From Lachnospiraceae bacterium (lineage in GTDB: Bacteria > Bacillota > Clostridia > Lachnospirales > Lachnospiraceae), in assembly GCA_017624235.1 (NCBI GenBank), contig JAGANL010000015.1, positions 62,001 through 126,000 of the forward strand: DNA of 64,000 nt. Reading direction: 5' to 3'. Positions 61,398 to 63,899 of this stretch are shown in pieces (position 1 is the stretch's first letter; each line of letters begins with the position of its first letter). A model generated the notes under the pieces. The model was not told the DNA's origin. It did not search any database and saw nothing but the letters and a program-made list of their open reading frames with translations. The position numbers and the translations under genes are program-made.

Positions 61398-62345
61398 TTA
61401 GTCTACTGTAATCAGTCCGACCGATGTAATCAGTTCCTTTCCTTCCTCTGATGCCAGATAATCAAACAGTGCTTTTACTGTTTCACTCTGTTCAGAAATC
61501 TCTCCTTTGGTTGCCATAACAAAAGGTCTCTGTAAGAAATAGTCTCCCGCCTTGATCGTATCTACAGTCGGAGCTACATCGTCAATCGTCAGGGCAATAA
61601 CGCTGTCATCTACTACATCCAGGGAAACATAGCCGATTGCGCCCGGTGTGGAAGCGACCTTTGCCATAACAGCGCCTGTGCTGTCCAATTCGTTTGCATA
61701 AGCACATTTGTCTTCAATCTCAAGCAGCTCTTCAAAGCCTCCTCTTGTACCAGAGCCAGCCTCACGTCCTACCACTACAATAGCCTGATCTGCTCCGCCG
61801 AGGTCTTTCCAGTTCTTCGTCTCACCTGTATAAATGCTTACCAGCTGATCCTTTGTCAGGTTAGCTACCGTATTGGCCGGGTCTACTACGACTGCAATAC
61901 CGTCAATCGCTACGACATTCTGTACAGCGCCGCCTTCCTTTTCACTGTCCTTTAAATTTCTGGAAGAATTTCCGATATCCACGCTACCTGCGAGTACGGA
62001 TTCTACACCTGCGGAGGAACCTGTAAACTCTGCCGTTACGGTAACATTCGGATATTTTGCCATAAAGCTCTCTGCCACTGCATTGGCAAGCTTCTCCATG
62101 GAGGTAGATCCAGCCATGGTAATGCTTCCGCTCAGATCAGCATCTGCTGCATCCTCAGCTCCCGTTTCTTCCGCCGGTGCTTCCTCTTCTGCCGGTGCCG
62201 CATCTTCTGCAGGCGCTGCCTCCTCTGCCGGTGTTTCTGCTGCCGGAGCAGCTGCCTCTTCCGTAGAACCACAGGCTGTCATACCAAGAACCATTGTTGC
62301 TGCCATTACAAGGCCGAGCATTTTTCTCATCTTGTTTTTCATCAT
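61398..62345 (-). CDS. pstS: Phosphate-binding lipoprotein PstS
   Basis: 315 residues. Signal peptide with lipobox MTAC (Cys25), an Ala/Glu/Pro-rich linker (EEAAPAEDAAPAEEEAPAEE), then the PBP-like phosphate-binding domain: SITMAGSTSMEKLANAVAES, GSVDIGNSSRNLKDSE, GREAGSGTRGGFEELLEI. GAGGAG precedes the start, with two adjacent ATG codons (62345 or 62342). The first gene of pstSCAB-phoU. A PHO-box candidate lies 107 bases upstream. Confidence 0.95.
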   Translation of the reverse strand: MMKNKMRKMLGLVMAATMVLGMTACGSTEEAAAPAAETPAEEAAPAEDAAPAEEEAPAEETGAEDAADADLSGSITMAGSTSMEKLANAVAESFMAKYPNVTVTAEFTGSSAGVESVLAGSVDIGNSSRNLKDSEKEGGAVQNVVAIDGIAVVVDPANTVANLTKDQLVSIYTGETKNWKDLGGADQAIVVVGREAGSGTRGGFEELLEIEDKCAYANELDSTGAVMAKVASTPGAIGYVSLDVVDDSVIALTIDDVAPTVDTIKAGDYFLQRPFVMATKGEISEQSETVKALFDYLASEEGKELITSVGLITVD

Positions 62346-62676: not shown

Positions 62677-62740
62677 ATCGCCTTTTTACCCCTCGAAATC
62701 AAAAATCCTTAATTTACCATACATAACATGATATAAAAAA

Positions 62741-62767
62741 TGCAACATTATGTAATAAAATGTTGCA
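62741..62767. repeat. Left inverted site of the recombinase (also terminator-like)
   Basis: TGCAACATT, nine bases, AATGTTGCA, within AAAAAA and TTTTT flanks. Bases 62751-62767 (TGTAATAAAATGTTGCA) are the exact reverse complement of 63478-63494. The structure could be a recombination site with two inverted arms or a bidirectional terminator after the recombinase gene. Confidence 0.7.
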
Positions 62768-62857
62768 TTTTTGTTTACATGATATATATCGGCCGCGCTC
62801 TGAAATACTTAATAGTTTTTTTCATTTTTTCTAAATTTTTTAAAGGGATTTTTTCTT

Positions 62858-63439
62858 CTATAACATTACTTTTCGGAACACTTCATCCTTGTCATCCTGC
62901 TCGATGCAAAGATAACGCATTGTAATCTGATAGGAAGAGTGATTGAAAATCTTCATCAGCATTACAGGTGGTATGCCCTGTTTCCACGCATGATAGCCAA
63001 AGGTTTTACGTAGGGAATGACAGCTGATATGTTCTTCAATCCCTGCATATTCCGCAGCTTCCCGTATGATTCGGAATGCCTGAAATCTGCTGAGCGCCAT
63101 ACCTTTGTGCTTTTGGCTCTGAAACAGATAATCGCCCTTTTGCATCGTTGGATGATCCGTCCGAAACTCCTTCAGCTTTTTCTTAATGGGCTGATTGATT
63201 GCAATGATATTCAGCTTTCCTGTCTTCTGTTCATGAATGCGGATATGCGTTTTTACACTTTTCTGTCTGAAATCATAAACATCACCCCAACGCAAATCCA
63301 GAATATCTCCGATACGCAGCGCTGTATTCAGACCAATGGTCATAAGCAGCGCATTTCGGCTGTTCGGATGAATCCTTTCATAATAATCCTTGAATTTTGT
63401 CAGGTCTTTCTTGCTCTTAATCGGTTCTGTTGTACTCAT
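62858..63439 (-). CDS. Small tyrosine recombinase (catalytic domain only)
   Basis: 193 residues with the complete catalytic set: Arg42 (TALRIGDILDLRW), Lys72 (EQKTGK), His141 and Arg144 (HSLRKTFGYHA), His167 (FNHSSYQ) and Tyr176 (MRYLCIEQ). There is no N-terminal core-binding or arm-binding domain, so it has the size of FimB/FimE-type DNA inversion enzymes. AGGAGG precedes the ATG at 63439. It is enclosed by two perfect 17-bp inverted repeats (62751-62767 and 63478-63494), and a CsrA-like gene reads away from it on the plus strand. Complete and intact, thus probably active. Confidence 0.9.
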   Translation of the reverse strand: MSTTEPIKSKKDLTKFKDYYERIHPNSRNALLMTIGLNTALRIGDILDLRWGDVYDFRQKSVKTHIRIHEQKTGKLNIIAINQPIKKKLKEFRTDHPTMQKGDYLFQSQKHKGMALSRFQAFRIIREAAEYAGIEEHISCHSLRKTFGYHAWKQGIPPVMLMKIFNHSSYQITMRYLCIEQDDKDEVFRKVML

Positions 63440-63477
63440 TTTTACCTCCTGTTTTCTGGCGACTGATATTCCCCTTC

Positions 63478-63504
63478 TGCAACATTTTATTACAGATTGT
63501 TACT
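63478..63504. repeat. Right inverted site of the recombinase
   Basis: TGCAACATTTTATTACA matches the left site exactly in inverted orientation; the next ten bases (GATTGTTACT) resemble the second arm of the left site at six positions. It lies 38 bases above the recombinase ATG and 72 bases above the CsrA-like ATG, in the shared promoter region. Confidence 0.7.
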
Positions 63505-63575
63505 GAAACAAATACCTGTTACACATGCAGGGAAGCAAAGCAGCATTGCTGCAGCACACAGGGAGGTGCACTCAT

Positions 63576-63899
63576 ATGTTAAGACTGACTCTCAGCACAG
63601 AGGAATATCTACAGGTCGGTGAAAATGTAAAAATTGTTTTCTTAGGCGGCAGCGGCAACCATCTCCGTATCATGGTGGATGCTCCGAAGGATGTCCACAT
63701 CGTCAGAAGTAAGCTGATTGAGAAGGACACCACTGATCCGGCAGAACGGGCCAGGCTTCCGAAGTTCTATGCCGAACCGGAGCTGCCGGAAAAATACCGT
63801 AAGAAAAAAGGTACTCAGAAACAGGATAACACCGCTTCCAACACATCGAAACCGGTAATTATTGTAAAAAAACCGACGACGGACAGGAATCCTTTATAA
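63576..63899 (+). CDS. CsrA-like RNA-binding protein with extended C-terminus
   Basis: 107 residues from an ATG at 63576 with GGGAGGTG upstream. The first 50 residues follow CsrA (MLRLTLSTEEYLQVGENVKI, GNHLRIMVDAPKDV, VRSKL), including Leu4 and Arg44, two positions important for GGA-containing RNA binding; the usual Arg6 and Gly11 are not kept. A basic, Thr/Lys/Pro-rich tail of about 55 residues is unusual, as CsrA normally ends near residue 65-75. No fliW or flagellin genes are adjacent, unlike the classical flagellar csrA. Its neighbour is the recombinase. Confidence 0.8.
   Translation: MLRLTLSTEEYLQVGENVKIVFLGGSGNHLRIMVDAPKDVHIVRSKLIEKDTTDPAERARLPKFYAEPELPEKYRKKKGTQKQDNTASNTSKPVIIVKKPTTDRNPL

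Follow-up and report, generated by a model that had tools for sequence, protein, structure and literature searches.

We found that the locus near the end of the window, by which we mean the whole 64,000-nucleotide stretch of DNA analyzed here, is in all likelihood a site-specific inversion switch for flagellin in which the recombinase gene lies inside the segment that it inverts. At the level of sequence, our analysis established the anatomy of the locus, the pairing of its sites, the direction of its promoter motif and the occurrence of both orientations among relatives, and it indicates that the segment very probably flips back and forth, switching the neighboring flagellin on and off. In the mechanism that we propose, the segment would carry an outward-facing putative sigma-28 promoter at one of its ends; in the assembled orientation this promoter would read away from the csrA-flagellin unit and into a terminator at the distal site (OFF). 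Recombination between the sites would invert the segment, after which the promoter would read into the csrA-like and flagellin genes (ON), passing the csrA-side site, where the degenerate outer arm is predicted to give no strong terminator. The flipping would be performed by the cassette's own recombinase, promoter and terminator would work as named, and the orientation state would be heritable and reversible.

The gene within the segment (62858..63439, minus strand) encodes a recombinase of 193 aa, identified by its Pfam and NCBIfam matches and its conserved residues. It is a PF00589 tyrosine recombinase and not one of the serine type; the match (E 1.1e-26, 94.1 bits against a cut-off of 27.1) spans residues 26-177 of the 193, and therefore the usual N-terminal domain is absent and the enzyme consists of the catalytic domain alone, in agreement with the first-pass annotation. 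The catalytic residues, which had been described as intact, were each kept in at least 79 of the 80 aligned relatives: R42, K72, H141, R144 and H167 are conserved in all of them and Y176 in 79, and we take this R-K-H-R-H-Y series to be the catalytic set. FimB and FimE are recombinases of ~190-200 aa with only the catalytic domain that invert a promoter and whose genes lie outside their segment. The cassette enzyme resembles them in size, in domain content and in the proposed promoter inversion, but its gene is inside its segment, and with the NCBIfam FimB/FimE-type invertase models it scored 43.5 bits (cut-off 222) and 34.3 bits (cut-off 221).

The sequence TGTAATAAAATGTTGCA occurs at 62751-62767 on the plus strand and recurs, in exact reverse complement, at 63478-63494. 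These are the only two exact 17-bp matches in the 2.33-Mb assembly, the next best having 2 mismatches, which confirms the exact inverted copies reported in the first-pass annotation and makes the pair unique genome-wide; the recombinase gene is, as also reported there, the only gene between them. The second arm that had been suspected is real: the left site is palindromic and the right one has a degenerate outer arm. The left, or distal, site (62740..62768, no strand), recognized by the 17 bp that it shares exactly with the other site and by its palindromic arms, has the structure TGCAACATT-N9-AATGTTGCA, which we recorded as the palindrome ATGCAACATT-N9-AATGTTGCAT. The csrA-side site (63477..63505, no strand), delimited by site comparison, has an inner arm identical to that of the distal site and a spacer identical to it at 8 of 9 positions. 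The sites, of ~29 bp each, thus form an inverted pair with matching spacers around the recombinase gene and the promoter motif, as an inversion switch would have, and their centers are separated by a median of 774 bp in 80 loci.

The first gene of the controlled unit encodes a CsrA-like protein of 107 aa (63576..63899, plus strand; PF02599, 57.6 bits against a cut-off of 27). It is oriented away from the segment, and downstream of it lies a flagellin gene (449 aa; contig 126112-127461; PF00669/PF00700) whose start is 112 bases beyond the end of the window. The CsrA-like gene had been proposed as the target of the flip; it is indeed in the controlled unit, but so is the flagellin gene. On the distal side of the segment lies a phosphate-binding-protein-like gene (window 61398-62345), toward which read-through of the distal terminator in the OFF state would run on the same strand. 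Also past the window end, at the contig end, there is a gene resembling transposases of the PD-(D/E)XK nuclease family (L009:5958-6833), with a match below the Pfam cut-off.

We found the same cassette plan in 80 loci from 68 assemblies, 12 of which hold two; assemblies were counted by record prefix or handle, and the two genome sets searched may overlap. The scan of named genomes gave 152 related loci, 80 of which were taken, and further genome searches added more; when 397 genomes were drawn from the family, 30 of them, counting that of the window, carried the recombinase with an E value of at most 1e-35. After duplicate removal there were 127 recombinase loci, 95 of which had an adjoining csrA or flagellin gene in the appropriate orientation; a clear inverted site pair was also present in 80 of the 95. 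The 32 loci left out had no csrA or flagellin neighbor in reach, some owing to a contig end, while the 15 loci with neighbors but no site pair at the threshold include some at contig ends and others that are perhaps switchless. Close relatives are mostly labelled Lachnospiraceae, and the genus sister (G001) is a MAG called Clostridiales bacterium, whose locus, split over two contigs within the recombinase gene, is also OFF; the spacers of its two sites have changed alike and differ from that of the window. A genus search (3 genomes) and a second family draw (397 genomes, mostly the same ones) brought up no closer ON/OFF pair; the single locus that they added, L213, lacks a motif match and has its csrA-flagellin unit on the side where L143 has it. 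Several loci differ in their surroundings. L040, L042, L043 and L064 have a tandem pair of csrA-flagellin units behind the recombinase; L144 and L152 combine a related recombinase and an inverted site pair with no csrA or flagellin in reach, are possibly other switches, and have neighbors that by eye resemble sugar and polysaccharide genes; and the related recombinases of L089, L106 and L110, which have no inverted sites, lie behind apparent ATP synthase genes.

Between the recombinase gene and one of the sites, relatives carry the motif TAAA-N16-CCGATA, which we consider sigma-28-type because it fits the consensus TAAA N16-17 MCGATAa given for flagellin genes of this bacterial group in the excerpted text of PMC3720852. 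The candidate promoter of the window (62785..62812, minus strand), TTAA-N16-CCGATATA, faces out of the segment and away from csrA-flagellin, with a position and direction conserved in relatives; as TTAA-N16-CCGATA it carries one mismatch, in the -35 box. The outward motif is exact in 58 of 80 loci and present with at most one mismatch in 78 (the exceptions being L094 and L016), compared with 0 and 1 loci, respectively, for the inward direction and shuffled-sequence expectations of 0.25 and 4.35. A first, slightly different pattern matched outward in 70 loci and inward in none, with the reversed pattern in 2. The motif lies 3' of the recombinase gene in 59 loci (type I) and 5' of it in 11 (type II), with the same logic. 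The first-pass annotation had expected the flip to turn the recombinase promoter toward the CsrA-like gene; the turning of a promoter agrees with our results, but the promoter in question appears to be a flagellar sigma-28 motif 3' of the recombinase gene. Between the csrA-side site and the flagellin gene there was no exact sigma-28 motif in 77 loci, and a one-mismatch motif occurred in 7 of the 77 against 8.9 in shuffles. For the genome's three further flagellin-like genes, no sigma-28 motif was found, allowing up to one mismatch, in the ~500 bases upstream of the match. We scored the window as OFF because its putative promoter faces away into the terminator and no other sigma-28 motif precedes the flagellin, a call that rests on sigma-28 motifs and leaves room for promoters of other types before csrA or flagellin.

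A transcript leaving the segment from the putative promoter would pass the distal site and its flank (62734..62768, minus strand), which are predicted to form an intrinsic-terminator-like hairpin with a T-run (-14.1 kcal/mol, 7 T of 8), while the simulated ON junction of the window, at the csrA-side site, gave -4.1 kcal/mol and 0 T of 8. Such a hairpin with a T-run was found at 69 of 70 OFF junctions and at 7 of 70 ON junctions, simulated or real, a count in which the site center was picked on the distal site and is thus biased toward that side; with the center picked on the other site the numbers were 66 and 6. The mean predicted energies were -19.6 kcal/mol for OFF and -9.3 kcal/mol for ON junctions. 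L061, an ON locus, has a terminator-like ON junction. The sole OFF junction with no terminator belongs to L108, where flagellin genes lie on both sides of the recombinase and point outward, and csrA is absent; judging from this arrangement, its promoter could choose between two flagellins.

Tyrosine recombinases require identity within the overlap for strand exchange, so spacers that match locus by locus are the expected trace of recombination between the two sites. Within-locus spacer identity was 0.967 in the 61 loci with 9-nt centers, against a permuted mean of 0.466 (maximum 0.536 of 2000), and 0.928 in the 19 loci with 8-nt centers, against 0.508 (maximum 0.691). The first motif pattern allowed a state to be assigned in 70 loci: OFF in 65 and ON in 5 (L042, L057, L061, L066 and L083); since L108, scored OFF, is two-sided, the split is 64 OFF, 5 ON and 1 either-or. 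L052, from Petralouisia muris NM01_1-7b, is assembled OFF. The other 10 of the 80 loci received no state; allowing up to one mismatch, the published consensus is present in 8 of them. The comparison of relatives proposed in the first-pass annotation therefore recovered both orientations, across relatives and not within one strain. The ON loci sit singly among OFF relatives and require 5 changes on the recombinase tree, compared with a mean of 4.9 for shuffled labels, which indicates that the ON/OFF state is not inherited along the tree. When ON and OFF loci are compared, the segments align in inverted orientation, and the csrA-flagellin flanks and a short distal stretch adjoining the site align in direct orientation: for L083 and L081, the distal 49 columns are 94% identical in direct orientation, the segment 78% in reverse and the csrA side 81% in direct orientation. 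The best pairs, all from different strains, share 72-78% DNA identity over the segment, those of L057/L074 and L066/L143 being alignable there only piecewise, and the inverted part begins and ends inside the sites. Both orientations, the locus-specific spacers and the position of these ends support the self-inverting switch that had been proposed.

The CsrA of the cassette bears a C-terminal extension and obtained 37.8 bits (cut-off 73) and 29.5 bits (cut-off 70.1) with the NCBIfam CsrA equivalog models. CsrA was matched in 28 of the 30 recombinase-bearing genomes and FliW in 25; all 26 FliW matches adjoin a CsrA match scoring 68-93 bits, whereas CsrA matches with no FliW neighbor, cassette copies included, score 23-65 bits. 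On both grounds, the missed cut-offs and this difference in scores, we consider the cassette CsrA to be a divergent paralogue. Thus, it resembles the canonical CsrA-FliW system of Firmicutes in placing a CsrA family protein beside flagellin, but differs in its divergence, in its extension and in the presence of a separate, FliW-linked CsrA in 25 of the 30 genomes. The assembly of the window (~80% complete) yielded no second CsrA and no FliW. According to the excerpted PMC3720852, which cites the finding, CsrA of B. subtilis represses flagellin translation, and the paralogue may tune translation of this or other flagellins. ANGGA motifs 5' of the csrA ribosome site numbered 33 in 67 leaders compared with 21.4 in shuffles; as this enrichment is mild, we dropped the idea of a CsrA-binding leader and claim none.

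We weighed these results against three other explanations. One of them grants that the cassette inverts in relatives but holds that it is locked OFF in this genome, with the repeats as a relic. The degenerate outer arm of the csrA-side site and the predominance of OFF among assembled relatives would fit it, but the same arm is usually degenerate in relatives too, including ON loci such as L042, and the window retains an identical inner arm, the near-identical spacer and an intact recombinase, while the two spacers of the sister genome have changed alike; we therefore regard a locked cassette as unlikely.

The suggestion that the left copy is only the terminator of the recombinase gene, the right one being a chance or regulatory match, is half sustained, as the left site with its T-run makes a good terminator. 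It does not account for the locus-specific spacers common to both copies in 80 loci, for the segments inverted between the same sites, or for the position of the right copy in type I loci, which is 5' of the gene, and "only" is most improbable: the distal site looks like it doubles as recombination site and terminator. Nor do we give much more than nominal weight to a degraded integrative element with inverted ends, which the first-pass annotation had also considered. The enzyme does belong to the broad phage-integrase family and a transposase-like gene lies past the flagellin, but in 80 loci the cassette accompanies csrA-flagellin, and a viral origin was discarded after 12 pattern stretches in viral contigs gave no confirmed relative. 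An inversion switch for flagellin is thus the reading that we retain.

The Salmonella H switch has the gene order hin, hixL/hixR, fljBA, with FljA as a post-transcriptional regulator. In the parts of the sources consulted, Hin is described as inverting a promoter orientation for alternative flagellins (PMC4513852) on a segment of 966 bp (PMC5903667). As in that system, the cassette has both recombinase and flagellin promoter motif inside the putatively invertible segment and a flagellin unit that includes a post-transcriptional regulator; unlike it, the cassette has a tyrosine instead of a serine recombinase, a CsrA paralogue instead of FljA, and a site that would act as a terminator in one orientation. 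In Clostridioides difficile, as the excerpts of PMC5386303 describe, RecV inverts a 154-bp segment (Cdi4) that has 21-bp repeats and precedes the flgB operon, control takes place after transcription initiation, and RecV serves other switches too. A tyrosine recombinase inverting a segment that controls flagellar genes would be common to both systems, but the cassette carries its own recombinase and promoter and would control a single flagellin unit. In the full-text literature, judged by title and abstract start, we found no description of such a switch, although an entry in the tables of inverton papers is possible; the main text of the invertible-segment survey PMC5903667 contains no Lachno, Roseburia, Butyrivibrio or csrA, and PMC3720852 no mention of recombinase, integrase or phase variation.

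A broader reading, which we hold to be evenly balanced, is that Lachnospiraceae have a flagellin phase switch of Hin-like design that is independent of the Salmonella one and built on a self-inverting tyrosine recombinase, a travelling sigma-28 promoter, sites that terminate only in OFF and a CsrA paralogue that is maybe FljA-like toward other flagellins, with L108 choosing between two flagellins. If true, the textbook Salmonella switch would have a striking convergent counterpart that uses another enzyme family, and the locus would provide an example of a single DNA site serving as recombination site and orientation-dependent terminator; moreover, the pairing with a CsrA paralogue opens flagellin cross-regulation to direct testing. 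Lachnospiraceae flagellins are major antigens for the gut immune system, and a built-in flagellin switch could explain patchy flagellin expression in commensals.
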